A stretch of DNA of 46,769 nt from Ignavibacteriota bacterium (lineage in GTDB: Bacteria; Bacteroidota; Ignavibacteria; UBA10030), in NCBI GenBank assembly GCA_003170475.1, contig PMZI01000028.1, positions 1 to 46,769 of the forward strand. The letters run 5' to 3'. Shown here in pieces: positions 9,044 to 36,458 of the stretch. The first letter of the stretch is position 1. Each line of letters opens with the position of its first letter. Position numbers and translations under genes: made by a program. The notes under the pieces are model-generated. The model saw only the letters and a program-made list of their open reading frames with translations. It had not been told where the DNA came from and made no database searches.

Positions 9044-10039
9044 ATGAAGGTCTTGTTTATCGGCGGGACGGGAAACATCAGCACGGCAGTGAGCAGGTTG
9101 GCGGTGGAGCGCGGCATAGAACTGTGGCATTTTAACAGGGGAAAAAGAGGTCCAGCAGTTCCCGGCGTGCAAACGATCGTCGGCGATTTCGCCAAACACG
9201 ATGAGGTCGCAGCCAAGCTGAAAGGGCATTCGTGGGACGTCGTCGTGAATTGGATCGCCTACCTGGAAGAGGATGTCCAGCGTGACTACGAACTTCTGAA
9301 AGGAAGAACAAGTCAATATATCTTCATCAGTTCAGCATCCGCATACCAACGACCGCTGGCATTTCCCATCGTGACGGAATCCACCCCCCTCTGCAATCCG
9401 TACTGGCAGTATTCCCGCAACAAGATCGCGTGTGAAACCAACCTGATGACTCATTACAGGAACGATGGTTTTCCCATCACGATCGTAAGACCCTCGCTGA
9501 CGTACGACACTGTGATCCCTGTCCCGATCGGCGGCTGGACGGAGTACACGATCGTCGATAGAATCAAAAAGGGGGAGAAGATCATCGTGCACGGCGATGG
9601 TTCCTCGCTGTGGACCATCACGCACGCGGATGACTTCGCCAAAGGATTCGTCGGACTCTTTGGCCATCAACAGGCGATCGGACAGGCGTTTCACATCACC
9701 TCTGACGAGATCCTCACGTGGGATCAAATTCATCAGGCTCTGGCAGAAGCGGCAGGGTGTAAAGCCAACATCGTTCACATATCGTCGGATTTCCTCGCAT
9801 CGTACGATGAGGAGCTTCGGGGAAGCCTTGTTGGCGACAAAGCGACGAGCGTGATTTTTGACAATACGAAGATCAAGCGATTCGTCCCCGGATTCGTCGC
9901 AACAATACCGTTCCAGCAGGGGATTAAGCGTACGCTCGATTGGTTTGAGGTGGATCCCGCCAGGCGAGTGGTGAAAAAGGAGACGAACGAATTCATCGAA
10001 AAAGTCCTGAAGCAGTACGAGGGTGCTCTGAAACGCTAG
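9044..10039 (+). CDS. NAD-dependent epimerase/dehydratase (extended SDR)
   Basis: A 331-residue extended short-chain dehydrogenase/reductase. The Rossmann start is MKVLFIGGTGNIS, with GGTGNIS as the dinucleotide loop, and the catalytic pair is Tyr123/Lys127 (YSRNK). FISSASAYQ supplies the Ser. The C-terminal half (about 190-331) is the substrate domain. The pattern resembles the CSP41/RfbB-like group that acts on nucleotide sugars or binds RNA in plastids, so the substrate is open. A strong AAAGGAG site precedes the ATG. No sugar-pathway genes are adjacent. Confidence 0.85.
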   Translation: MKVLFIGGTGNISTAVSRLAVERGIELWHFNRGKRGPAVPGVQTIVGDFAKHDEVAAKLKGHSWDVVVNWIAYLEEDVQRDYELLKGRTSQYIFISSASAYQRPLAFPIVTESTPLCNPYWQYSRNKIACETNLMTHYRNDGFPITIVRPSLTYDTVIPVPIGGWTEYTIVDRIKKGEKIIVHGDGSSLWTITHADDFAKGFVGLFGHQQAIGQAFHITSDEILTWDQIHQALAEAAGCKANIVHISSDFLASYDEELRGSLVGDKATSVIFDNTKIKRFVPGFVATIPFQQGIKRTLDWFEVDPARRVVKKETNEFIEKVLKQYEGALKR

Positions 10040-25070: not shown

Positions 25071-25631
25071 CTAGAGAAGTTTCTTTATCTGGTTCTCGAA
25101 CGTCTCCTTTGATCTAAAGCCTTCGTACTTCGTTACAATCTTTCCGTGCTTATCAATAATGAAGGTCGTCGGGATGGCTTCGACACCGCCGTAGTGTGCA
25201 GCGACTTCATCGGTTCCGAGCAAGACCGGGTAATTCATCCCATTGTCTTTAACGAATGCCTGCACCTTGTTTGGCTGATCCAGAGCTATCCCTACAATCT
25301 GAACACCCTTCGAACCGTACTCTGACTGGAGCTTAATGAAGTCGGGAATTTCCCGCTTGCAGGGAGGGCACCATGTTGCCCAGAAATCGAGGATAACAAC
25401 TTTGCCCTTGAAGTCGGCAAGTGAAACCGAGCGGCCGTTCATGTCAACCAAGGTGAATCCTGGAGCCACACCGGAAACTTCAGCCCCCGCTAACGCGTAA
25501 CTGGTTGGCGCTGGTTCCTGCAGGGTTTCGTTGTTCCCCAAGAGAAGGTAGGTGGTCGCCAGCAGGGCCATGCTTAGGGCAATCCCTATATACACTCTTG
25601 ATCGATTTTTTGGCCGCATTCTCTTCTTCAT
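25071..25631 (-). CDS. TlpA/ResA-like thiol-disulfide oxidoreductase
   Basis: A 186-residue exported thioredoxin-fold protein. One membrane anchor (about 13-31), then AlkylHP/TlpA features: FTLVDMNGRSVSLADFKGKVVILDFWATWCPPC with active-site Cys88 and Cys91, and EAIPTTFIIDKHGKIV with the cis-Pro. In the periplasm such proteins keep the haem-binding Cys of c-type cytochromes reduced. An octaheme cytochrome gene lies 3 kb away and is a likely client. The gene is divergent from the thioredoxin-like trio. Confidence 0.9.
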   Translation of the reverse strand: MKKRMRPKNRSRVYIGIALSMALLATTYLLLGNNETLQEPAPTSYALAGAEVSGVAPGFTLVDMNGRSVSLADFKGKVVILDFWATWCPPCKREIPDFIKLQSEYGSKGVQIVGIALDQPNKVQAFVKDNGMNYPVLLGTDEVAAHYGGVEAIPTTFIIDKHGKIVTKYEGFRSKETFENQIKKLL

Positions 25632-25873
25632 TTAGTTTCCTCTCAACGATTCGTGTTCACCCGAAGGCACCGTGGGTTCATTGCAGGCTCAGGAACGGTC
25701 GTCGCGTCCATTGTCAGGAGTATGCAACTTCATTCAGGGCTGCTTCAATGCGATGCTGCATTCAGGAAAAAGATTCGGGAAGAAAGACATGACGGCATCT
25801 CCTGTCCGGAATCCTTCTGGATTCAGGTGCATCTCACTTACTGAGACCTACAACCCAACCAAAGGAGAATTCC

Positions 25874-26230
25874 ATGCTACAGACGAGTCTTAAGCACATC
25901 CTCACAGAACAGGACTTTCAGGATACCCTCAGAAGCAACGAAAATGTCATGATTTGCTGCGGTCGAATGGGACCGATGTGTATCCCGGTATATGAAGTGA
26001 TGGATGAGTTGCAAGGGGATTATGACCATGTCGCATTTCGGGATATGGAGTTTGACGGACCGATTGGTCACCTGATCCGCACTCTCCCGGAGTGCAAGAG
26101 CTTTCGCGGATTGCCGTTTACCGTCTATTTCAAGAACGGAAAAGTAGTTCGTGCAACGACGAGCATTCAAACGAAAGATCAAGTCACAGAAATTCTTGAT
26201 GCTGAATATGCGGCAAGGGCGGCAAAGTGA
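25874..26230 (+). CDS. Atypical thioredoxin-like protein with CCGRMGPMC
   Basis: A 118-residue thioredoxin-fold protein in which the usual WCxxC is replaced by VMICCGRMGPMCIPVYEVMDEL: Cys28, Cys29 and Cys36. The rest of the fold is visible, including a cis-Pro region FRGLPFTVYFKNGKVV. This spacing (C-C-x6-C) cannot be a normal CxxC dithiol and may bind a metal or persulfide. A strong AAAGGAG site precedes the ATG. It overlaps the TrxR-like gene by four bases, which points to that flavoprotein as its reductase. Confidence 0.82.
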   Translation: MLQTSLKHILTEQDFQDTLRSNENVMICCGRMGPMCIPVYEVMDELQGDYDHVAFRDMEFDGPIGHLIRTLPECKSFRGLPFTVYFKNGKVVRATTSIQTKDQVTEILDAEYAARAAK

Positions 26231-27192
26231 CTTGGGATGGCAATCCAAATACATATGACGTCATCGTTGTCGGTGCCGGCCCGGCAGGCTTGACCGCGGG
26301 GATCTATCTCGGACGGGCTAAGATGCGGACACTCGTCTTGAATGAAGGTCCTGTCGGCGGACAGTTGGTTCTCACTCATGAGATTGCCAACTACCCTGGT
26401 GTCGAGAGCATAAGCGGCTATCAACTCGCTGCGACGATGAAGAAGCAAGCGAGTACATTCGGCTGCACGATCCGCTCCAACGTCGCGGTCACGAATTTCG
26501 ACCTCGACGGAGAAGTGAAGACTATTGAAGTCAACGGAAAGGAGACATTCTGTGCTCCTGCGATCATTCTGGCGATGGGAGGAAGATCGCGAATGCTCAG
26601 TGTCCCGGGAGAACAGGAGTTTAAGGGAAAAGGTATTTCCTATTGCGCGACATGCGACGGTGATTTCTTTCAGGACAAAGACATCATCGTCGTTGGCGGT
26701 GGGAATTCAGCTCTGGAAGAGGCAGTGTCTCTGACAAAGTATGCGCGATCTGTTACGATCGTCCATCAGTTCGACGAATTCCAGGCATTTGCTCATGCCA
26801 TCGAAGAAGCAAGGGCAAACGCAAAAATAAGTTTCATCATGCAGTCGACCGTTACCGAGTTTATGGGGAATGGCTTTCTCCAAAGTGTGAAGATTCGGAA
26901 TCTCGTGTCCGGCGAGATAACAGAAAGAGCAATTGATGGTGTATTCATTTTCATTGGGTATGTTCCCAATACCGAAAAGTTCGTCGGTAGGGTCCAGTTG
27001 AATTCAGGGGGTGAGGTGGTTGTCAACTCGTCGCTCGAAACAAATGTGCAGGGTGTGTATGCGGCCGGTGATTCGATACAGAAGAAGTATCGTCAGGTCA
27101 CGACGGCGGTTGCCGATGGAACCATCGCGGCGCTGAGCGCGATCGGTCATTTGCACAATCACCGTGCAAATCAGTTGGAGAAGGCTCTATGA
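26227..27192 (+). CDS. Thioredoxin reductase-like flavoprotein
   Basis: A 321-residue FAD protein of the thioredoxin reductase fold. The FAD loop is GAGPAG (16-21), the redox pair Cys140-AT-Cys143 (SYCATCDGDFF), the second nucleotide loop VVGGGNSALEEA, and the C-terminal FAD motif GVYAAGDS. The NADPH-phosphate motif HRRxxxR of true TrxB is replaced by HQFDEFQ (180-186), so NADPH specificity is doubtful. NADH, ferredoxin or another donor is possible. GTG start overlapping the thioredoxin-like gene; it in turn overlaps DUF1858 by four bases. Confidence 0.9.
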   Translation: MTWDGNPNTYDVIVVGAGPAGLTAGIYLGRAKMRTLVLNEGPVGGQLVLTHEIANYPGVESISGYQLAATMKKQASTFGCTIRSNVAVTNFDLDGEVKTIEVNGKETFCAPAIILAMGGRSRMLSVPGEQEFKGKGISYCATCDGDFFQDKDIIVVGGGNSALEEAVSLTKYARSVTIVHQFDEFQAFAHAIEEARANAKISFIMQSTVTEFMGNGFLQSVKIRNLVSGEITERAIDGVFIFIGYVPNTEKFVGRVQLNSGGEVVVNSSLETNVQGVYAAGDSIQKKYRQVTTAVADGTIAALSAIGHLHNHRANQLEKAL

Positions 27193-27392
27193 TCACAAAG
27201 GAAATGACAATCGAAGAGCTGGTCACAGAGGTCCCTGATGCGGTGGGGTATCTTATGCAGAACGGGATCAAATGCATCGCTTGCGGTGAACCGATTTGGG
27301 AAACCGTCGAGTCAGCAGTAAAGAACAAAGGCTTCAGTGACAAAGAAGTCGAGACATTCGTCATAGATCTGAGCAAACTGAGCCGAGGATAG
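27189..27392 (+). CDS. DUF1858 domain protein
   Basis: A 67-residue protein: MTIEELVTEVPDAVGYLMQNGIKCIACGEPIWETVESAVKNKGF. This is the DUF1858 domain (usual in hybrid-cluster-linked and sulfur-redox proteins), with Cys29 and Cys32 in KCIACGEP. It could bind a metal or receive electrons or persulfide. Third gene of the overlapping trio, ATGA-coupled to the flavoprotein. Confidence 0.88.
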   Translation: MITKEMTIEELVTEVPDAVGYLMQNGIKCIACGEPIWETVESAVKNKGFSDKEVETFVIDLSKLSRG

Positions 27393-27630: not shown

Positions 27631-27666
27631 GTGCATGGCACCATACTTGTATTTTAAAATATAGGT

Positions 27667-28146
27667 ATGGAAAATCCTAAAAACGACAAAACACCCCTGC
27701 ACACGATAGGAAGCGTTGCTCGAATGCTCGTGGTATCCGTGCAAACGCTTCGTATGTACGAGCGCCGGGGTCTCATTATCGCACAAAAGAGTGCTGGGAA
27801 TCAGCGTCTCTATTCTCAGTCGGACATTGAACGGTTGAAGTGCATACGCACGTCTATCAGCAAGCACAAGATTTCCATCGAGGGGATTCGCCGGATACAA
27901 TCCATGGTCCCTTGTTGGGAGAATGTGCAGTGTCCAATGGAACAGAGAGTTGAGTGTCCCGCATTTGCCGCATCGGATGCCGGATGCTGGACATACAAAC
28001 ACAAGACGAATGTGTGTGCGGGTCGCGATTGCCTGCATTGCAAGGTGTATCTGCTTGCTGGGGACTGCGAACAAATCAAGTCACTGGTCCATCATCAGAC
28101 CAGCCGTTTGTCTGAGACAACAGACGATCTGCAAAAAGGAAAGTAA
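27667..28146 (+). CDS. MerR-family regulator with eight-Cys C-terminal domain
   Basis: A 159-residue regulator. The winged helix HTIGSVARMLVVSVQTLRMYERRGLI lies at 12-37 and a linker helix follows. The C-terminal part holds eight Cys (83, 89, 97, 107, 117, 122, 125, 134) in patterns such as CWENVQCP, ECPAF, GCW, CAGRDCLHCKVY. It looks like an iron-sulfur or zinc module that could sense redox state, nitric oxide or sulfur species. It heads, with a three-base gap, the octaheme cytochrome operon, so it very likely regulates it. Confidence 0.85.
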   Translation: MENPKNDKTPLHTIGSVARMLVVSVQTLRMYERRGLIIAQKSAGNQRLYSQSDIERLKCIRTSISKHKISIEGIRRIQSMVPCWENVQCPMEQRVECPAFAASDAGCWTYKHKTNVCAGRDCLHCKVYLLAGDCEQIKSLVHHQTSRLSETTDDLQKGK

Positions 28147-28149
28147 AGA

Positions 28150-29718
28150 ATGAAACGGATATTCTTTGGGCTCATCGTTTTTGGTATGGTTCTTGGGATG
28201 ATCATGCTGGCCCTTCACGGAAAAAGCACCGAGAGCACACCGCTTGCAAAGCTGAATGAACAGTACGCCAAGAAGACCAAGGCATCGGTTGACCACTCGA
28301 TGTTTCAGCAGTTGAAGAAACGATTTGTGAAGCCACAAGATGTGACTGCGGCATGCATCTCATGTCACAATGGCCGCGCGAGCGAAGTGATGCAATCGAC
28401 CCATTGGAATTGGGAACGAACGGAATACATCGCCGGCAAGGGCATACGCGCCATTGGAAAACGAAATGTGCTCAACAACTATTGTATTGGCATCTCGGGA
28501 AATCAGCAAAGCTGCAATCGATGCCACATCGGTTACGGGTATTCCGACGCGTCGTTCAACTTCAGTGATTCTCTGAACGTCGACTGCCTCGCGTGTCATG
28601 ACAACAGCGCGACATATGTGAAAGCGATTGACGGAGCCGGAATGCCAGACAAATCAGTCGACCTCAACTACGTTGCCCAACACGTTGGCAAGCCTGACCG
28701 CACCAACTGCGGCACGTGTCATTTCTTCGGCGGCGGAGGGAACAATGTGAAACACGGCGATCTTGAGCAGGCGCTCTTTGACCCGACCCGCGATGTCGAT
28801 GTCCATATGGCTTCGGCAGGACCCGACATGCAATGCGTCGATTGCCATACGGCACAGAAGCACCAGATGCTTGGAAAAATGTATTCAGTCTCTTCGATGA
28901 ATCGCAACCGGGTTGAATGCGAACACTGCCATTCGGCAATGCCTCATGCAGACGATGTGCTCAACGAACACACCTACAAGGTGGCGTGTCAAACGTGTCA
29001 CATTCCGATCTACGCAAAGGTGAATCCGACAAAACTGAACTGGGACTGGTCGACCGCCGGAAAATTGAAAAACGGAGAACCGTATGAGGAGAAAGACTCG
29101 AGTGGAACTGATATCTATATGTCCATCAAGGGTTCGTTCAAATGGGGAAAGCAACTAAGGCCGGACTATATATGGTTCAACGGAACTGCGTCACACTATC
29201 TACTTGGGGATACACTCGATCCTTTAAAAGTGCTGGAGATCAACACCCTGTATGGAAGCTACGACGATCCGGACTCCAAGATCTACCCCGTGAAAATCCA
29301 TCGTGCAAAACAGATCTACGATGTTGTGAACAAATATCTCATCCAGCCAAAACTTGTCGAAGTGAAAGCGGGAGACGGCGGATTTTGGAAAGAATTCAAC
29401 TGGGAGCGGGCAGATGAAGAAGGCATGAAACAAGTCCGCCTGCCATACAGCGGAAAATATGGCTTTGTCGAGACAGAGATGTATTGGCCGATCAACCACA
29501 TGGTCTCTCCAAAAGAACAGTCAGTTCAATGCGCTGAATGCCACACGCGCGAGAACGGACGTCTTGCTCGCGTTGGCGGATTCTATATGCCGGGCAGGGA
29601 TTATAGCACAATCGTCGATCGATTGGGTGTAGGGGTTCTGATCCTCACGCTGATTGGAGTCATCCTCCACGGAACGGCAAGGGTTGTGGTGTATCGGAAG
29701 AGAAAGGATGCGAAGTAG
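28150..29718 (+). CDS. Octaheme c-type cytochrome, tetrathionate reductase (OTR) family
   Basis: A 522-residue exported multihaem cytochrome. Eight CxxCH sites at residues 69-73, 122-126, 146-150, 187-191, 229-233, 257-261, 280-284 and 461-465. A membrane segment or signal at 5-22 and a second one at the C-terminus (about 491-507). PQDVTAACISCHNGRASEVMQSTHWNWE is typical of the OTR family. The Shewanella enzyme reduces tetrathionate, nitrite and hydroxylamine in vitro, with a Lys-ligated active haem. Here the C-terminal anchor and the adjacent cytochrome b suggest quinol-fed reduction at the membrane. The physiological acceptor is not fixed by sequence. Confidence 0.92.
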   Translation: MKRIFFGLIVFGMVLGMIMLALHGKSTESTPLAKLNEQYAKKTKASVDHSMFQQLKKRFVKPQDVTAACISCHNGRASEVMQSTHWNWERTEYIAGKGIRAIGKRNVLNNYCIGISGNQQSCNRCHIGYGYSDASFNFSDSLNVDCLACHDNSATYVKAIDGAGMPDKSVDLNYVAQHVGKPDRTNCGTCHFFGGGGNNVKHGDLEQALFDPTRDVDVHMASAGPDMQCVDCHTAQKHQMLGKMYSVSSMNRNRVECEHCHSAMPHADDVLNEHTYKVACQTCHIPIYAKVNPTKLNWDWSTAGKLKNGEPYEEKDSSGTDIYMSIKGSFKWGKQLRPDYIWFNGTASHYLLGDTLDPLKVLEINTLYGSYDDPDSKIYPVKIHRAKQIYDVVNKYLIQPKLVEVKAGDGGFWKEFNWERADEEGMKQVRLPYSGKYGFVETEMYWPINHMVSPKEQSVQCAECHTRENGRLARVGGFYMPGRDYSTIVDRLGVGVLILTLIGVILHGTARVVVYRKRKDAK

Positions 29719-29719
29719 C

Positions 29720-30379
29720 ATGAAAAGAGAATATGTGTACAGAGCGTTCGAACGATTCTGGCACTGGATGCAGGCAATGCTAATCCTGTTCCTCGGAATC
29801 ACCGGATTCGAGATCCACGGATCGATACGGTTTTTTGGATACGATCAGGCAGTACGGTATCACAACACGGCTGCGATCAGTTTTCTGGTGTTGATCGTCT
29901 TCGCGATCTTCTGGCATTTCACGACAGGGGAATGGAGACAGTATCTTCCAACGTGGAAAAACCTGCGCGCTCAAGCTGAGTACTATGTCTTCGGCATCTT
30001 CCGCAATGCTCCGCATCCGACAAAGAAAACGGTCCTGAGCAAGCTGAACCCGCTGCAAAAACTTGTGTATGCGGGACTCAAAGCCTTGGTCATTCCTGTG
30101 ATGGTTATTTCCGGACTGCTCTATATGTTCTATCGTTACCCACATCGGTACGAGGTGCTGGGGTTGAACGTCGGTGGCCTGGAGGTGATTGCTGTGGTTC
30201 ACACGATAGGGGCGTTCCTCCTTGTGTCGTTTTTTGTGGCTCACCTGTATCTCATCACAACCGGGCACACTGTGACCTCAAACTTGAAGGCAATGATTAC
30301 TGGATACGAGGAACTGCCCGAGGAGTCGGACGAAAAGAAATCAAGCGTTGAAGCAAATGAACCTGTTCTCACAAAGTGA
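29720..30379 (+). CDS. Cytochrome b membrane subunit (cyt b561/FdhI-like)
   Basis: A 219-residue protein with four main membrane segments. MKREYVYRAFERFWHWMQAMLILFLGITGFEIHG is the standard start of formate-dehydrogenase-gamma/thiosulfate-reductase cytochrome b subunits. Candidate haem ligands are His15, His48, His66 and the later HTIGAF and VAHLYLITTGH. It should oxidise quinol and hand electrons to the octaheme cytochrome. It starts one base after that gene's stop. ATG 29720 was chosen because the family similarity starts exactly there. The Glu/Ser-rich tail (EELPEESDEKKSS) is cytosolic. Confidence 0.9.
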   Translation: MKREYVYRAFERFWHWMQAMLILFLGITGFEIHGSIRFFGYDQAVRYHNTAAISFLVLIVFAIFWHFTTGEWRQYLPTWKNLRAQAEYYVFGIFRNAPHPTKKTVLSKLNPLQKLVYAGLKALVIPVMVISGLLYMFYRYPHRYEVLGLNVGGLEVIAVVHTIGAFLLVSFFVAHLYLITTGHTVTSNLKAMITGYEELPEESDEKKSSVEANEPVLTK

Positions 30380-30382
30380 GCG

Positions 30383-30901
30383 ATGATTATGGATACGAAA
30401 TACATGAATCCTTACCTCGCGGGCTTTCTCCTCGGCCTGGTACTGTTAGCGACTATTTTCATCACCGGAAGGGGACTTGGAGCAAGCGGTGCCATCAAAA
30501 GCATCGTTGTTGCGACAGTTGACGGTATCGCATCGAAACACGCAGAAGGATCGCATTTCTATGGGACGTATGTCGGGCCGGGTAAAGACAACCCTATGAA
30601 ATCGTGGCTGGTGTTTGAAATCTTCGGGGTTCTTATCGGTGGGTTTGTCTCAGGGCTGGCTTCCGATCGGATGAAGTTTGTGACCGAAGCGGGGCCGAGA
30701 ATTCGACCAAAGCTCCGATGGTTGTTTGCCGCCATTGGCGGAGCGCTTTTCGGGATTGGTGCACAGTTCGCCCGCGGGTGCACCAGCGGCGCAGCGCTCA
30801 GCGGTATGGCAGTGCTCTCCACTGCGGGGTTCATTACAATGATCGCGATTTTTGGCACGGGGTATGCGGTTGCATACTTTGCCCGCAAGTTGTGGATATA
30901 A
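30383..30901 (+). CDS. YeeE/YedE-family sulfur transporter, first
   Basis: A 172-residue membrane protein of the YeeE/YedE (TsuA-related) family, which takes up thiosulfate or related sulfur species. About four membrane segments. The signature GIGAQFARGCTSGAALSGMAVLS carries the conserved Cys133. A long extracytoplasmic loop (SKHAEGSHFYGTYVGPGKDNP) follows the first segments. It follows the cytochrome b by three bases. Together with the next gene it would form a complete, two-protein YeeE-like channel. Confidence 0.88.
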   Translation: MIMDTKYMNPYLAGFLLGLVLLATIFITGRGLGASGAIKSIVVATVDGIASKHAEGSHFYGTYVGPGKDNPMKSWLVFEIFGVLIGGFVSGLASDRMKFVTEAGPRIRPKLRWLFAAIGGALFGIGAQFARGCTSGAALSGMAVLSTAGFITMIAIFGTGYAVAYFARKLWI

Positions 30902-30923
30902 GAGAAAGCAAGAAGGTGATTTC

Positions 30924-32120
30924 ATGGGACCATTCGTACCTGAATTGATATCGGATCAACTAAATCTCGTGGTAGCTCTTGTATTGGGGATTGCCTTCGG
31001 TGCTGTCCTGGAGCAAGCAGGATTTTCATCGTCCCGGCGACTCGCCGGCGTATTCTACGGCTATGACTTCACGGTTCTCCGTGTGTTCTTTACGGCGACG
31101 GTGACTGCGATGAGCGGCGTTCTGCTACTGGGATATTTTGGACTCCTGGATACCGAAGCAATTTTCGTCAACCCGACCTGGCTGGTTCCGGCAATCGTTG
31201 GTGGAATCATCATGGGGATAGGTTTCGTTCTTGGCGGCTATTGTCCGGGGACAAGCGTCTGTGCCGCCGCCATCGGCAAGATCGATGCGATGTTTTTCAT
31301 TGGTGGGGGGCTCCTTGGAGTGTTCGCTTTTGGAGAGCTCTTTCCACTCTACGGCAACTTCTATGATTCGACATCGCTCGGTCCAATCAAAGTGTTCGAT
31401 TCGTTGGGAATGTCTCAAGGGTTGTTCGCCTTCCTGCTCATTGCCGTGGCTGTGGGAGCATTTGCTGTGACGACGCTCATCGAAAAACGGGTGAACAAGC
31501 TTTCAGCTCCTTCCCTGGAGTTTAAGTCGCGGAGGCATATCGCTGCAGGAGTCGGCATTTTCGCCCTCGGTCTGCTCTTTATTGTTCTGCCGGACAGAAA
31601 GACTTCCCTCGTCGACAAAGTCTCTGACCCCAAGTATGTTGCTTCACATCCTGTCATAATGATGGATGCCGACGAACTGGCATTCCGCATCGTCGATCGT
31701 GAGCCGAACATTCGGATCATCGACCTCCGCTCCACCGATACATCGGCGAGCCTTGTTTTGCCCGGCGAGGAAAAGATCGCGGTGCGTGATCTGTTCGGCA
31801 AGGAGTGGCTCCCCATATTCTCGCAACGGCACCTGAAGAAGGTCCTGGTCGGCTATGACGAGTCTCAGGAGCGCATTGCCTATCTGCTTTTGCAAGAACT
31901 CGGCTACGAGAACCTGGCTGTGTTGAAAGGTGGATTTGAAGCATTCGACAAGACAATCCTCTCGCCTGGACCTTTTGTCCCGACGGGCAGCAGATGGGAT
32001 GCAGATGTCAAGGCGTTCCGAGAAAAGGCGCATGGAGATATACTTAAGCTGATCGCAGAGAACAAGAACAAAGGTGCGAAGGAGCCAAAGAAAACCAAGA
32101 AAGTGCAAGGAGGATGTTGA
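30924..32120 (+). CDS. YeeE/YedE-family transporter fused to a Cys-less rhodanese
   Basis: A 398-residue fusion. Residues 1-225 form a YeeE/YedE membrane domain (LEQAGFSSSRRLAGVFYGYDFTVLR, and GFVLGGYCPGTSVCAAAIGKIDA with Cys107 and Cys113). Residues about 245-360 form a rhodanese-like domain (RIIDLRSTD, LGYENLAVLKGGFEAF). The catalytic loop reads VLVGYDESQERIAY where active rhodaneses have Cys, so it cannot form a persulfide there. The tail is Lys-rich. ATG 30924 with AGAAGGTG upstream was preferred over an upstream in-frame start. Last gene of the MerR-octaheme operon. Confidence 0.88.
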   Translation: MGPFVPELISDQLNLVVALVLGIAFGAVLEQAGFSSSRRLAGVFYGYDFTVLRVFFTATVTAMSGVLLLGYFGLLDTEAIFVNPTWLVPAIVGGIIMGIGFVLGGYCPGTSVCAAAIGKIDAMFFIGGGLLGVFAFGELFPLYGNFYDSTSLGPIKVFDSLGMSQGLFAFLLIAVAVGAFAVTTLIEKRVNKLSAPSLEFKSRRHIAAGVGIFALGLLFIVLPDRKTSLVDKVSDPKYVASHPVIMMDADELAFRIVDREPNIRIIDLRSTDTSASLVLPGEEKIAVRDLFGKEWLPIFSQRHLKKVLVGYDESQERIAYLLLQELGYENLAVLKGGFEAFDKTILSPGPFVPTGSRWDADVKAFREKAHGDILKLIAENKNKGAKEPKKTKKVQGGC

Positions 32121-32949: not shown

Positions 32950-33351
32950 ATGCCCCGACCGCAGAAATTCCGACGTGTAACACATACTCCAGGGTTTACA
33001 TACTTCAAACCCCAGGGCATTCCCATGCCCTTGCTCGATGAAGTCGTCCTCACGATTGACGAGTTTGAAGCTCTCCGGCTGGCTGACCTGCAGGCGCTCT
33101 CGCATGAAGAGGCAGCGACGAAGATGAAAATCTCGCGTGCAACATTTGGGAGGATTATTGAGAAAGCGCGTCAAACGCTGGTTGATGCAATTGTGAACGG
33201 TAAGGCAATTCGCATCGAGGGGGGCAATTACCGGATGGGGAAGATGTTCGAATTCCAGTGCAAGAGCTGTAACCGGAGTTGGAAATTCTCAGCGGCTGCC
33301 GCTGAACAGAAAGACTGTCCTCGGTGCAAACAGAGAGGGTGGTCCCGATGA
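32950..33351 (+). CDS. DUF134 (UPF0251) DNA-binding-like protein
   Basis: A 133-residue protein: PRPQKFRRVTHTPGFTYFKPQGIPM, LTIDEFEALRLADLQALSHEEAATKMKISRATFGRIIEKAR, the usual UPF0251 sequence with a sigma-70-region-4-like helix-turn-helix. An extra C-terminal zinc ribbon-like tail has CKSCNRSW and CPRCKQRG. Such proteins often sit beside NifX-like and metal-cluster genes, as here (35 kb). Probably a regulator. It is preceded by an ArsR-type operator and its stop overlaps the transporter start (ATGA). Confidence 0.88.
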   Translation: MPRPQKFRRVTHTPGFTYFKPQGIPMPLLDEVVLTIDEFEALRLADLQALSHEEAATKMKISRATFGRIIEKARQTLVDAIVNGKAIRIEGGNYRMGKMFEFQCKSCNRSWKFSAAAAEQKDCPRCKQRGWSR

Positions 33352-34190
33352 GTGATACCGTGATGAAGGTCATCCTCGAGACTGTGCAGATATCGTTGCT
33401 TGTGCTCGTCATGATGATTGCTGTAGACCTCATCAATGTTTGGACGAGGGGAAAAATGGGGGAATTCCTAAAAAGGGGTAGACAGTGGCGACAATACGTC
33501 ATTGCTTCGCTTGTTGGAGTGATGCCGGGCTGCGTCGGAGCGTTTACGAATGTATCACTCTATGTGCATGGCATGATCAGCTTCGGGGCGCTTGTCGGCG
33601 CAATGGCAGCAGTCTCCGGCGACGAGGCATTTGTCATGCTCGCGATGTTCCCGAAAACTGCTCTGCTGCTCTTTGGTATTCTTCTGGTTTTGGCAATTTT
33701 CATCGGATGGCTCACTGATCATCTTGTCCGACGTTGGCACATCCATACCTGTACTGACTGCACATCGGAATTGCTTCATGGTAACTCAGAGGGGTTCTCT
33801 CATTACATCAAAGAGCACGTCTGGCGCCATATTATCAAACGACATCTCTTGAGGACAGTACTCTGGACCTTTGGCGCTTTGCTGGTAGTTGAACTCGGAT
33901 TACAGCATTGGGATCTGAAGCAGTTTACGTCAGAGCACTCCCTCACGATGTTGTTCCTCGGCGCTCTTATCGGTTTGATACCGGAATCGGGTCCCCACCT
34001 CATCATCGTGACCATGTATGCGAGCGGGCTCGTACCGTTCTCCGTTCTCTTGACGAGCTCCATCGTGCAGGATGGTCACGGAATGCTGCCGATGTTGGCC
34101 TATTCTGTCAAAGATTCAGTAAAGATAAAAGGCTTCAACCTGGGGTTCGGATTGATCATCGGACTTACCGTCTATCTCATAGGATGGTGA
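33348..34190 (+). CDS. ArsP_2-type putative heavy-metal/manganese transporter
   Basis: A 280-residue polytopic protein with about eight to ten membrane segments. It matches the 'putative 10-TM heavy-metal exporter' family: GVMPGCVGAFTNVSLYVHGMISFGALVGAMAAVSGDEAFVMLAMFP and GALIGLIPESGPHLIIVTMYASGLVPFSVLLTSSIVQDGHGMLPMLAYS. The loop between the halves is His/Cys-rich (RRWHIHTCTDCTSELLH). Efflux of a metal or metalloid is the best guess. Coupled to DUF134 by a four-base overlap and led by the ArsR-type operator. ATG 33348 fits the family start. Confidence 0.87.
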   Translation: MSDTVMKVILETVQISLLVLVMMIAVDLINVWTRGKMGEFLKRGRQWRQYVIASLVGVMPGCVGAFTNVSLYVHGMISFGALVGAMAAVSGDEAFVMLAMFPKTALLLFGILLVLAIFIGWLTDHLVRRWHIHTCTDCTSELLHGNSEGFSHYIKEHVWRHIIKRHLLRTVLWTFGALLVVELGLQHWDLKQFTSEHSLTMLFLGALIGLIPESGPHLIIVTMYASGLVPFSVLLTSSIVQDGHGMLPMLAYSVKDSVKIKGFNLGFGLIIGLTVYLIGW

Positions 34191-34192
34191 CA

Positions 34193-34651
34193 ATGAACGA
34201 CATCGCGCAAAGTAGTAGCACGGCCGAACGTGGTCACAGCGCGGATGTATTCCACACTGAGTGTTTTGCGTGCGCCCCAATTCATGAGCAGGGTTTGCGC
34301 CTGCAGTTCGAATCAAGTGGCATTCAAACGACTTGCCACACCGAGATTACCAAGGCTCATCAGAGCTACAACGGGGTAGTGCATGGTGGAATCCTCGCGA
34401 CACTCTTGGACGCGACGATGATCCAGTGCCTGCACCACGCTTTCGGCGGCGATCCCCTGACCAGTAGATTGGATATCCGATGGCGCAATATTGTTCAGAT
34501 TGACACGCCTCTCACCGTCACGGCATGTATCACATCGCGACGCGGGGTACATGGCTGGGCACATGCGACAATTATGCAGAATGACCGGGTGTGTGTCACA
34601 GCTCGGGGCACCTTCAAGGTGGTTGAGTCTTTACGAGGGCCAGCGAACTGA
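34193..34651 (+). CDS. PaaI-type hotdog-fold thioesterase
   Basis: A 152-residue protein of the 4HBT/PaaI hotdog family. The central helix and active-site region reads SYNGVVHGGILATLLDATM (HGG motif), followed by the beta-strands TSRLDIRWRNIVQIDTPLTVTACITSRRGVHGWAHATIM. An N-terminal piece FHTECFACAPIHEQGLRLQF has the Cys pattern seen in 'CFACG' hotdog proteins. It would hydrolyse an acyl-CoA or similar thioester. ATG 34193, preceded by AGGA, begins two bases after the transporter stop; a longer start at 34184 overlaps it. A thioesterase in a metal-efflux operon is unexpected. Confidence 0.82.
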   Translation: MNDIAQSSSTAERGHSADVFHTECFACAPIHEQGLRLQFESSGIQTTCHTEITKAHQSYNGVVHGGILATLLDATMIQCLHHAFGGDPLTSRLDIRWRNIVQIDTPLTVTACITSRRGVHGWAHATIMQNDRVCVTARGTFKVVESLRGPAN

Positions 34652-34741
34652 TGGAAGAATACGGCGAGCAGCGCAGAGTTGTTTCCTCTTAGTGGATTCT
34701 CGCCGCGGATCATTCACAACCACAAGGCATTGAGCCACGTT

Positions 34742-34769
34742 TTGAAGAAGTAAGGTGTGATTGTATAAT
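34742..34769 (+). promoter_or_regulatory. Sigma-70-like promoter for the NifX-type gene
   Basis: TTGAAG (34742-34747), 16 bases, TATAAT (34764-34769). A start near 34776 would leave the upstream ATG 34772 outside the message. This supports ATG 34814 as the real start of the following gene. Confidence 0.55.
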
Positions 34770-34813
34770 TCATGAAAACAAACAATAAGGATGAATCAGA
34801 AGGGTTGGAAAAT

Positions 34814-35227
34814 ATGGATACCACAAATATCAAAGTCGCATTCGTCACTGACGACGGAACCACCATCAGTCAGCATTTTGGGCGGGCACATTACTATGAA
34901 GTTCTTACGGTCGTGAATGGAGCCGTGACGAACCGTGAACGTCGGGAAAAGGCGGGGCATCATACGTTTGCCGGACAAGAACAGCAGCACGAACATCACG
35001 GTCCTGGGCACGGATTTGACGAACATTCGCAGGGGAAACATCGCACGATGACGGAAAACGTAATGGACTGCCAGATTCTGGTCGCCCGCGGGATGGGATT
35101 CGGAGCATACCAACATATCACAGATGCCAAACTCAAGCCGATCATTACCCATACCCAGAACATCGATGATGCGGTTCGCGAAATCATCAGTGGCACGATC
35201 GTTAATCATGAAGAGCGGTTGCACTAA
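34814..35227 (+). CDS. NifX/NifB-domain molybdenum-iron cofactor-binding-like protein
   Basis: A 137-residue protein of the dinitrogenase iron-molybdenum cofactor fold: MDTTNIKVAFVTDDGTTISQHFGRAHYYEVLTV, and the later NVMDCQILVARGMGFGAYQHI and AVREIISG. A His-rich insert (HHTFAGQEQQHEHHGPGHGFDEH) could bind metal. No nif genes are near, so it is probably an orphan metal-cluster carrier, a setting common in anaerobes. ATG 34814, with AGAAGGG upstream, was preferred over 34772, which lies at or before the predicted transcription start. Confidence 0.87.
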   Translation: MDTTNIKVAFVTDDGTTISQHFGRAHYYEVLTVVNGAVTNRERREKAGHHTFAGQEQQHEHHGPGHGFDEHSQGKHRTMTENVMDCQILVARGMGFGAYQHITDAKLKPIITHTQNIDDAVREIISGTIVNHEERLH

Positions 35228-35277
35228 GGCCTCACAGTTATATCGATGCTGGGACTGAAGACCATTGGAGGTAAAGG

Positions 35278-35823
35278 ATGTTTGTGCCGCAGAAAATCTT
35301 TTTTACAAAAGGTGTCGGTCGCCACAAAGAGTACCTGCAATCCTTTGAGCTGGCCCTTCGGGACGCTGGGGTCGAGCGATGCAACATGGTGTCTGTCTCC
35401 AGTATTTTTCCTCCGAAGTGTCGTCGGATCACAAAGACTGAGGGGGTGAAACTCCTGGAGCCCGGGTCAATAACTTTTGTCGTGATGGCCCGCAACGCCA
35501 CGAATGAACCCAATCGTCTTGTAGCAGCCTCAATCGGGTTTGCCCAACCTGTTGATGATTCGGCATATGGATATCTGTCGGAGCATCATTCGCTGGGTGA
35601 GACGGATGAACGCGCGGGCGATTACGCTGAGGATCTCGCGGCATCGATGCTCGCATCCACATTGGGCATAGAGTTTGACCCGGAACTTGCTTGGGACGAG
35701 CGCGAAAAATACTACAAGATGAGCGGGAAGATTCTGAAGACATATAACATCACGCAATCGGCGGAGGGGAGCAAAGAAGGGATCTGGACATCGGTGGCTG
35801 CAATGGCCGTGCTCTTGCCCTAA
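35278..35823 (+). CDS. pdaD: Pyruvoyl-dependent arginine decarboxylase
   Basis: A 181-residue proenzyme that makes agmatine from arginine, the entry to polyamines. The self-cleavage site is Ser41-Ser42 in [12 protein letters not shown], giving a pyruvoyl group on the second chain. Other family blocks are present: [54 protein letters not shown] and [34 protein letters not shown] site precedes the ATG. This enzyme type is common in archaea and in Bacteroidota/Chlorobi. No other polyamine gene is adjacent. Confidence 0.92.
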
Positions 35824-36011
35824 AAGCGTAAACGAAAACCCGTTATTAGCCACAGGGGCTCCAAGGCGCAAAGAGAAAAACTAGAAACAATGAAGTACTC
35901 TCTCACCTTGGTTTCTGCGCGACCTGGTGGCGAGGCCATTCAAGCAGCCCTTTAGATTCCCGTCGGTTGCGCGCAGAAGGAAGAAAAAACCAACAGAGAA
36001 AGCACAATGTT

Positions 36012-36458
36012 ATGAGCGAGAAAACCCGGATCGGAATCATCATTTGCCATCGATATCATACATGCGCCGGTGGAAAGTGCTTCCATGCACTCTCCCGCAG
36101 GGAGGGGGCATTCAGCATGTACGAGAACAACGAAGTCGAGCTTGTGGGGTTTACAACATGCGATGGTTGCCCTGGCGGAAACGTAGAATCTGCTCCTGAA
36201 GAGATGAAGAAGAATGGAGCTCAGGTCATTCACTTTGCCACCGGTATGGTTGTAGGGTATCCACCCTGTCCCTACATTGAGCACTTCCGTGACTTTATTC
36301 CCGCGAAGTACGGTCTGAAGGTAGTGGTAGGTACGCATCCCATTCCTCAAAAATACTATAAGACTCATACAGAGCTAGGAACCTGGGAGACACCGGAATG
36401 GAGAGAATTGATTCAACCGACACTGACGGATGAGAAGACACGATTGGCATATGATTGA
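36012..36458 (+). CDS. CGGC domain protein
   Basis: A 148-residue protein: TRIGIIICHRYHTCAGGKCFHALSRREGAFSMY, VELVGFTTCDGCPGGNVESAPEEMKKNGAQVIHFATGMVVGYPPCPYIEHF. This is the CGGC domain, with several Cys (CHRYHTCAGGKC, CDGCPGG, PPCP) that probably bind a metal or iron-sulfur cluster. Function unknown. ATG 36012 is chosen over an upstream in-frame start as the family begins there. The 188 bases before it hold an inverted-repeat-like element (CTCCAAGGCGCAAAG with CTTGGTTTCTGCGC) and no gene. Confidence 0.82.
   Translation: MSEKTRIGIIICHRYHTCAGGKCFHALSRREGAFSMYENNEVELVGFTTCDGCPGGNVESAPEEMKKNGAQVIHFATGMVVGYPPCPYIEHFRDFIPAKYGLKVVVGTHPIPQKYYKTHTELGTWETPEWRELIQPTLTDEKTRLAYD

Follow-up and report, generated by a model that had tools for sequence, protein, structure and literature searches.

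An OTR-type octaheme cytochrome cassette with a split YeeE-type transporter and a Cys-tailed rhodanese domain as a candidate periplasmic sulfur carrier

What does an octaheme cytochrome of the OTR family do beside its own cytochrome b and a transporter of the YeeE/YedE type, one part of which ends in a rhodanese fold with a C-terminal cysteine? The question is raised by a five-gene locus (positions 27667-32120) on contig PMZI01000028.1 of an Ignavibacteriota bacterium from the UBA10030 lineage (GCA_003170475.1); the 46,769 nt analyzed are called the window here. The genes for a MerR-family regulator, the OTR, the cytochrome b and two YeeE-like proteins (Y1 and Y2rh) all run in one direction, with intergenic gaps of 3, 1, 3 and 22 bases, exactly as an earlier note on the sequence had described. 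The cassette is real and widespread. It is a variant of known sulfur-reductase gene sets, and its surprising part is the Cys-tailed rhodanese arm, which may act as a sulfur carrier. No description of an OTR together with YeeE halves and a Cys-tailed rhodanese was found among the open-licence PMC literature matches listed; papers are cited below by PMC number.

An anchored OTR with a split transporter

Searching 395 genomes of the phylum with TIGR04315 gave 55 above the cut-off, and the window's genome has a single OTR. Of the 60 places that scored above the cut-off, 51 (counting the window) had their neighborhoods taken, and nine loci of family f26 kept short flanks. The best 80 of 212 loci from a profile search of genome contigs belong mostly to Ignavibacteria and other Bacteroidota-type metagenome-assembled genomes, and some are labelled Acidobacteria, KSB1 or Armatimonadetes, labels that can err in such assemblies. 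With duplicates removed, the counts rest on 122 distinct OTRs. Y1 and Y2 follow the OTR on the same strand in 101 of these, and 98 of the 101 also have the cytochrome b; the gene order, which the earlier note had allowed might be unique to this contig, is thus widespread. In the other 21 loci, the OTR is followed by Y2 only (2), by cytochrome b only (5) or by neither (14). Four of these 14 are cut by contig ends (L122, L123, L156 and L163) and ten are of soluble length (455-472 residues); Y1 and Y2 follow none of these ten, which lie outside the anchored clade and one of which is near a contig end. A C-terminal hydrophobic segment was detected in 93 of the 101 cassette OTRs, five others fall just under the cut-off, and three (L060, L061 and L165) clearly fail. 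In a tree built by a quick method and rooted at the midpoint, one clade (Shimodaira-Hasegawa-like approximate likelihood ratio 99) holds 105 rows: 99 cassettes, 2 partial ones and 4 OTRs without the cassette, all 4 at contig ends.

The protein itself belongs to the OTR family, as the earlier note had proposed: it scores above the curated TIGR04315 cut-off (375 bits), with eight CxxCH motifs and the conserved non-motif Lys and Cys. Residues 55-467 match the Shewanella OTR (1SP3), and the C-terminal hydrophobic segment is extra. Its 17 cysteines comprise 16 in the eight motifs and the non-heme C112, which aligns to C64 of the 1SP3 chain, while K201 aligns to chain K153; both are present in 100% of 123 OTR rows. 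We take K153 to be the heme-ligating lysine of the Shewanella enzyme, with Cys64 presumably close to it. The active-site heme of that enzyme is ligated by a lysine from outside the motif (PMC12285233). The two proteins thus share eight hemes and the conserved Lys and non-heme Cys; however, the Shewanella OTR is soluble and periplasmic, with a small tetraheme cytochrome as partner (PMC4484225, PMC6449678), whereas the window OTR is membrane-anchored and comes with its own cytochrome b, transporter halves and a tailed rhodanese. The cytochrome b was recognized correctly by the earlier note and is of the b561 type. It could not be assigned as PhsC, since its best NCBIfam match, PRK15006, reaches 102 bits against a cut-off of 204, and it is classed as a b561 relative only. 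A recombinant Beggiatoaceae OTR, encoded near a thiosulfate-reductase cytochrome b, reduces tetrathionate at up to 93 umol per min per mg, above nitrite (PMC6449678).

The two YeeE-like genes both match PF04143, in line with the earlier note; yet Y1 covers the second half of the profile and Y2 the first, so that the pair makes up one transporter in two halves. PmpA and PmpB are such halves, with one conserved Cys each (PMC11582611). Correspondingly, Y1 C133 is found in 100% of 108 rows and Y2 C107 in 100% of 100 rows, and a second Y2 cysteine, C113, is kept in 81%. The pair is therefore of the PmpA/PmpB type, with Y2 corresponding to PmpB and Y1 to PmpA, and equivalence to Cys91/Cys293 is assigned by position, after PMC11582611. 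For YeeE, a cysteine relay has been proposed that hands thiosulfate on to a Cys of its cytoplasmic partner YeeD (PMC11073785). YeeE-YeeD (TsuA-TsuB), PmpA/PmpB and the window pair are alike as cysteine-lined sulfur transporters. They differ in that YeeD is a cytoplasmic TusA-like partner carrying the "fourth cysteine," whereas Y2rh has its extra Cys on a rhodanese-fold arm that is probably periplasmic. The YTD cluster of sulfur disproportionators likewise combines a YedE-type transporter with sulfur-handling partners, but these are TusA, DsrE and two Chp genes, which are not in the five-gene cassette (PMC9751629). Membership in YTD was ruled out because the window's genome has no TusA match.

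A rhodanese domain that ends in Gly-Cys

A rhodanese fold is fused to the second transporter half, as the earlier note had stated, with a PF00581 score (22.5 bits) barely above the cut-off of 22.2. The catalytic-loop Cys that marks an active PF00581 rhodanese is missing from Y2rh, and a Cys occurs in the nine-column loop of only 1 of 100 distinct homologues. A cysteine is kept instead at the C-terminus. Gly-Gly-Cys is present there in 97 of 100 distinct Y2rh proteins, as the last residues in 81, one residue before the end in 15 and two residues before it in 1; two others end in GGLCS (L060 and L061) and one has no such tail. The tail Cys is thus kept in 99% of distinct Y2rh, and C107 and C398 are invariant in a 35-row alignment. 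Counting fused and unfused forms together, a Gly-Cys tail is found in 131 of 138 cassette-linked rhodaneses, versus 2 of 20 other rhodaneses and 2 of 1415 unlabelled open reading frames. In 22 of 35 unfused rhodaneses the terminal Cys is the sole cysteine. The tail occurs in loci labelled Ignavibacteria, Chloroherpeton, other Bacteroidota and Acidobacteria. Among the seven exceptions, L142 and L144 resemble another, lipoprotein-type rhodanese; L165 is split, with the tail on the next open reading frame; L143 looks frameshifted; L191 is a short open reading frame whose profile match continues through stops; the protein of L150 is a further copy in its cassette; and L167 has no tail. Separately, a stop divides Y2 from the tailed rhodanese in the cassette of locus L082 (genome G005).

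The location of the arm was read from charge. Successive Y2 loops have mean net charges of -0.8, +1.0, -1.2, +1.0, -1.1 and +2.6, and the values within Y2rh are +0.7 after the last helix, -2.1 for the rhodanese and +3.8 for the tail. By the positive-inside rule this alternation places the rhodanese outside. In many unfused homologues the N-terminus consists of a short run of charged residues and a single hydrophobic helix. The charge pattern and these N-terminal anchors suggest that the N-terminus and rhodanese of Y2rh lie outside and that the tail is periplasmic. In an AlphaFold model of Y2rh the mean predicted local distance difference test score (pLDDT) is 74.7, with a weak membrane part and rhodanese blocks mostly at 80-93. 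A helix spans residues 359-381 and the last residues score below 50, which fits a flexible arm and, equally, any unstructured end. Foldseek over the rhodanese part returned rhodanese-like folds, the best being 2hhg (E 8.8e-5), titled as a possible tyrosine phosphatase.

Two known systems offer comparisons. The Y2rh profile matches 1QXN, the sulfide dehydrogenase Sud of Wolinella (E 3.4e-4), which we take to be a rhodanese fold serving the periplasmic polysulfide reductase. Sud uses a catalytic-loop Cys, whereas this residue is absent from Y2rh. The SoxYZ swinging-arm carrier, in which the C-terminus of SoxY reads GGCGG, resembles Y2rh in having an arm with one sulfur-binding Cys and a link to sulfur enzymes. 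Y2rh differs in its rhodanese fold, its membrane tether and its fusion to a transporter half, and its carrier role is putative. The SoxY fold (PF13501) is not seen in Y2rh, which gives only PF04143 and PF00581 at E <= 0.001; a PF13501 search of the whole genome also found no SoxY match, but the control was not detected either. In lucinid symbionts OTR lies next to SoxY-S3 and SoxZ (PMC11237559), so that OTR is paired with a swinging-arm protein there too, independently. Two other identities for the tail were rejected. GG-thiocarboxylate carriers are of the ThiS/QbsE type; many tails in the cassettes described below have one Gly (EGC or DGC) and those of L182-L184 read MGC, so the second Gly varies while the Cys is kept. 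The GlyGly-CTERM signal does not fit because no hydrophobic stretch follows the tail.

A second reductase cassette and the shared regulator

A PF04143 search found a second pair of halves in the window's genome, on contig 66 (L035), in the order MerR, molybdopterin subunit, iron-sulfur protein, NrfD, Y1, Y2 and a rhodanese ending KKKKEGC. This is the PsrABC/PhsABC-type order of molybdopterin subunit, iron-sulfur protein and NrfD (referred to below as the Mo set). The NrfD matches PF03916 and the iron-sulfur gene was recognized by an in-house profile only. The molybdopterin subunit is nearest PhsA, an identity that was dropped because its 515 bits lie under the cut-off of 694. The genome contains three full molybdopterin oxidoreductase matches and two partial ones in one further gene. 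Thirty further loci (L168-L197) were nearly all picked for Y2 or rhodanese matches; 24 of them combine the Mo set with Y1, and 23 of the 24 have a Cys-tailed rhodanese, L191 looking broken. The other six include L182-L184, with a further rhodanese upstream and no Mo enzyme, L168 at a contig end, L175, which joins the Mo set to two tailed rhodaneses and lacks Y1, and L177, which has neither. These two L175 proteins are the tailed non-cassette rhodaneses counted above, and since they stand beside a Mo set without Y1 or Y2, the tail may serve a reductase without the transporter. At three loci (L150, L152 and L153), OTR and Psr cassettes lie side by side. By sequence, the same regulator type and accessory module thus serve a PsrABC-type reductase elsewhere in the genome and in 24 other loci.

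A search with the Y2rh profile matched 324 of 395 genomes, mostly weakly. The 33 genomes with full-length matches above 480 bits all have an OTR above the cut-off; weaker near-full-length matches are Psr-type loci in five genomes (G016, G134, G188, G337 and G389) and a contig end in G011. A third context for the Cys-tailed rhodanese was seen in L183 (6898-10906) and also in L182 and L184, where a rhodanese with an MGC end follows Y1 and Y2 and a further rhodanese lies upstream. In L183 the upstream rhodanese appears, by eye, to be exported and two-domain, and a cysteine-desulfurase-like gene lies downstream.

The Psr cassette as a gene set was already known, because PMC6338057 describes MerR-psrABC-DUF395-rhodanese in 'Ca. 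Thermonerobacter thiotrophicus', with similar psrABC in Melioribacter roseus and I. album. That cluster shares with the window's cassette the regulator type, two PF04143 domains, a rhodanese and a sulfur-type reductase, and resembles the second cassette of the window's genome. It differs in having PsrABC instead of OTR-cytochrome b; an octaheme protein is not mentioned, and the excerpted text of that paper contains no mention of a Cys tail, a lost catalytic Cys or an operator.

The regulator is the variable part. The earlier note had described a MerR-led operon, which is correct for the window; among the OTR-Y1-Y2 loci, however, a MerR gene was called upstream in 39 of 101. In 15 of 99 OTR loci another gene of 120-175 codons lies just upstream, and six that were inspected look MarR-like by eye. 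The window MerR has nine cysteines rather than the eight first reported, C59 plus eight in the C-terminal part. Among homologues above 90 bits, duplicates kept, all nine are retained in 43-44 of 44 from OTR cassettes and 20 of 20 from Psr cassettes, the one exception being at C134. The C-terminus could not be identified as a Two-CW domain (NF045718: 7.8 bits, E 4.2, against a cut-off of 35).

Upstream of MerR, a core TTG(N)TATTTATAAATA (up to 2 mismatches) is present in 31 of 40 OTR cassettes and 12 of 20 Psr cassettes, compared with 44 of 6000 random windows of the same loci and 67 of 12000 mononucleotide shuffles. The 43 occurrences are not independent events, because relatives share ancestry; the same site before two different enzymes nonetheless argues for one signal. 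No core was found in 17 of 60 MerR upstream regions (9 of 40 OTR, 8 of 20 molybdopterin-type), and it is present before 4 of 97 OTR or molybdopterin-subunit genes without a called MerR. The window core TATTTTAAAATA is 2 mismatches from that of its relatives, and a stricter pattern matched only the contig-66 site in the window's own genome. The palindrome CCATAC-N-GTATGG was discarded as a general operator, and the TTG(N)TATTTATAAATA core adopted instead, because a degenerate form of it matched only the window and L186.

Table 1. Genes and predicted elements of the window cassette
Feature	Position	Strand	Evidence
MerR-family regulator	27667-28146	+	PF13411 58.6 bits; nine Cys
OTR-family octaheme cytochrome c	28150-29718	+	TIGR04315 596 bits; 1SP3 E 4e-128; C-terminal hydrophobic anchor
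b561-type cytochrome b, PhsC-like	29720-30379	+	PF01292 96 bits
Y1, PmpA-like C-terminal half of YeeE/YedE transporter	30383-30901	+	PF04143 profile 175-308; Cys C133
Y2rh, PmpB-like N-terminal half, last transmembrane helix, Cys-less rhodanese and basic linker with Gly-Gly-Cys398 end	30924-32120	+	PF04143 profile 10-191; PF00581
Rhodanese-like domain and C-terminal arm inside Y2rh, predicted periplasmic	31584-32120	+	Foldseek, profile match, charge alternation
Putative operator overlapping MerR start	27641-27670	+	CCATAC-N18-GTATGG around core TATTTTAAAATA (27650-27661)

Upstream of the cassette (25071-27392) lie genes for a ResA-like thiol-disulfide protein, a thioredoxin-like protein, a thioredoxin-reductase-like protein and a DUF1858 protein, the last ending about 275 bases before MerR. 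Downstream (32950-36458) are DUF134, ArsP_2 heavy-metal exporter family, Nitro_FeMo-Co, pyruvoyl-dependent Arg decarboxylase and CGGC-domain genes, possibly a metal or redox cluster. By eye, a protein resembling the window CGGC protein (35967-36458) directly follows the soluble OTR genes of L068 (at 9359-9823) and L070 (at 9530-9994).

A candidate mechanism and its alternatives

What the sequences themselves show is the cassette and its conservation, the retention of the tail, the loss of the catalytic Cys, the exchange of reductase modules and the shared site. Because of this gene set and its conservation, the loss of the catalytic Cys with retention of the terminal one, and the enzyme swap, we infer, by analogy, that the Y2rh tail works like the SoxY arm, as a swinging thiol that links a quinol-fed reductase with a transporter. 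In such a scheme, cytochrome b561 would take electrons from quinol and pass them to the membrane-anchored OTR on the periplasmic face, and the Cys-less periplasmic rhodanese domain would be the scaffold of a flexible basic arm ending in Gly-Gly-Cys398. Cys398 would carry a sulfur adduct, either a persulfide or a thiosulfonate derived from tetrathionate or polysulfide, and would shuttle between the OTR active site (lysine-ligated heme and C112) and the pore cysteines Y2 C107 and Y1 C133. After reductive cleavage of the S-S bond by the OTR, the sulfane sulfur would pass into the cell, with the arm as the periplasmic sulfur donor to the split transporter. The Cys-rich MerR may control the cassette from the palindromic operator. 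The thiol-carrier chemistry, the substrate and both directions are what we infer from this context: reduction is favored because both enzymes come from families of reductases, and the family of the transporter speaks for import. We regard this coupling of quinol-linked sulfur reduction to sulfur import through the Cys398 arm as a tentative proposal with somewhat less than an even chance of being right. The broader proposal, which we hold with the same reserve, just short of even, is a new class of periplasmic sulfur carriers in which the rhodanese fold no longer has its catalytic Cys and the sulfur chemistry has moved to a swinging arm with a C-terminal Gly-Cys. At least two unrelated reductases (OTR-cytochrome b and PsrABC-type) would share this carrier, which is fused or adjacent to a split transporter; reduction and import would be coupled on one thiol, in a SoxY analogue built on another fold. 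The earlier note had pictured a quinol-fed reductase of sulfur (or nitrogen) oxyanions with a transporter. The single operon, its own quinol-type cytochrome b and the tie to sulfur through the halves and the sister cassette bear out part of that picture, in which the respiratory role, the substrate and the direction of sulfur stay tentative.

Several observations speak against the thiol-arm proposal. A joint model of Y1 and Y2rh was too poor to use (pLDDT 54), no model shows contact of the arm with the OTR or the pore, and the 44 PDB matches of the Y2rh profile include no YeeE structure. Directly behind the last transmembrane helix the charge is weakly positive (+0.66), contrary to a clean positive-inside reading. 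A loop-like Cys is present in 2 of 35 unfused rhodaneses, by a text pattern so insensitive that it found only 4 of 20 other rhodaneses. L060 and L061, outside the main clade, have the halves and GGLCS ends, but their OTR is unanchored and cytochrome b is missing. TusA, which might have been the cytosolic sulfur acceptor, has no match in the window's genome (control positive in 11 of 14). C. abyssi has an OTR, and its predicted tetrathionate and sulfur respiration was unconfirmed by growth (PMC5317091); no growth on S0, thiosulfate or sulfite was obtained with M. roseus, a species that has MerR-psrABC, tetrathionate not being among the substrates tried (PMC3534657). To the same side belong the 5 of 122 loci with OTR-cytochrome b and no transporter halves, the arsenate response of M. 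roseus and the nitrogen substrates of OTRs, each of which also favors a rival explanation.

The five loci fit an arrangement in which OTR-cytochrome b reduces a free sulfur oxyanion, as OTR relatives do with free tetrathionate, while the Pmp-type pair independently moves thiosulfate or sulfane sulfur and the terminal Cys is structural or regulatory. We consider this unlikely, though it has the better claim among the alternatives, since a structural Cys need not end a basic linker, in fused and unfused forms alike, beside two unrelated reductases and with the catalytic Cys lost. The flow could also be oxidative, as in Sox systems, with OTR-cytochrome b loading or stripping sulfur on the Cys arm, electrons passing to the quinone pool and the transporter importing sulfane sulfur. 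The SoxY parallel and the OTR beside SoxYZ in symbionts (PMC11237559) agree with this, and sulfur passage from the SoxY Cys along the pore cysteines of SoxT is considered in PMC11582611. The sister enzyme, however, is nearest PhsA and has an NrfD subunit, an OTR relative was assayed as a reductase (PMC6449678), and the genome gave no SoxY match, though with its control undetected; an oxidative role appears rather improbable.

In M. roseus, psrA is preceded by a MerR gene and rises strongly on arsenate (PMC5492636), and in the window an ArsP_2 gene lies about 1.2 kb downstream of the cassette. The MerR might accordingly sense arsenite or a metal, with both cassettes handling (thio)arsenic oxyanions or the sulfur stress that accompanies arsenate respiration. 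The transporter halves and the rhodanese point instead to sulfane sulfur, and we know of no arsenate reduction by an OTR, which leaves an arsenic function a shade less credible than the oxidative one. OTRs also reduce nitrite and hydroxylamine, and no NrfA above the cut-off was found in the window's genome, so that the OTR could serve nitrogen reduction and the transporter genes another purpose. But the halves follow the OTR in 101 of 122 loci and PsrABC-type genes as well; this gene context disfavors a nitrite-only role, and we think a nitrogen function very improbable.

Sulfur import and the sensing of external sulfur have been called poorly understood (PMC11582611). For the OTR, a reductase with several in vitro substrates, the cassette provides a context, and it links the OTR with PsrABC-type enzymes, which have the same regulator type, transporter and putative carrier. 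We know of no settled physiological substrate for OTR. The tail offers a single residue, Cys398, on which the carrier idea can be tested, and if that idea is true, sulfur would travel between enzyme and membrane by a route that has no earlier description.

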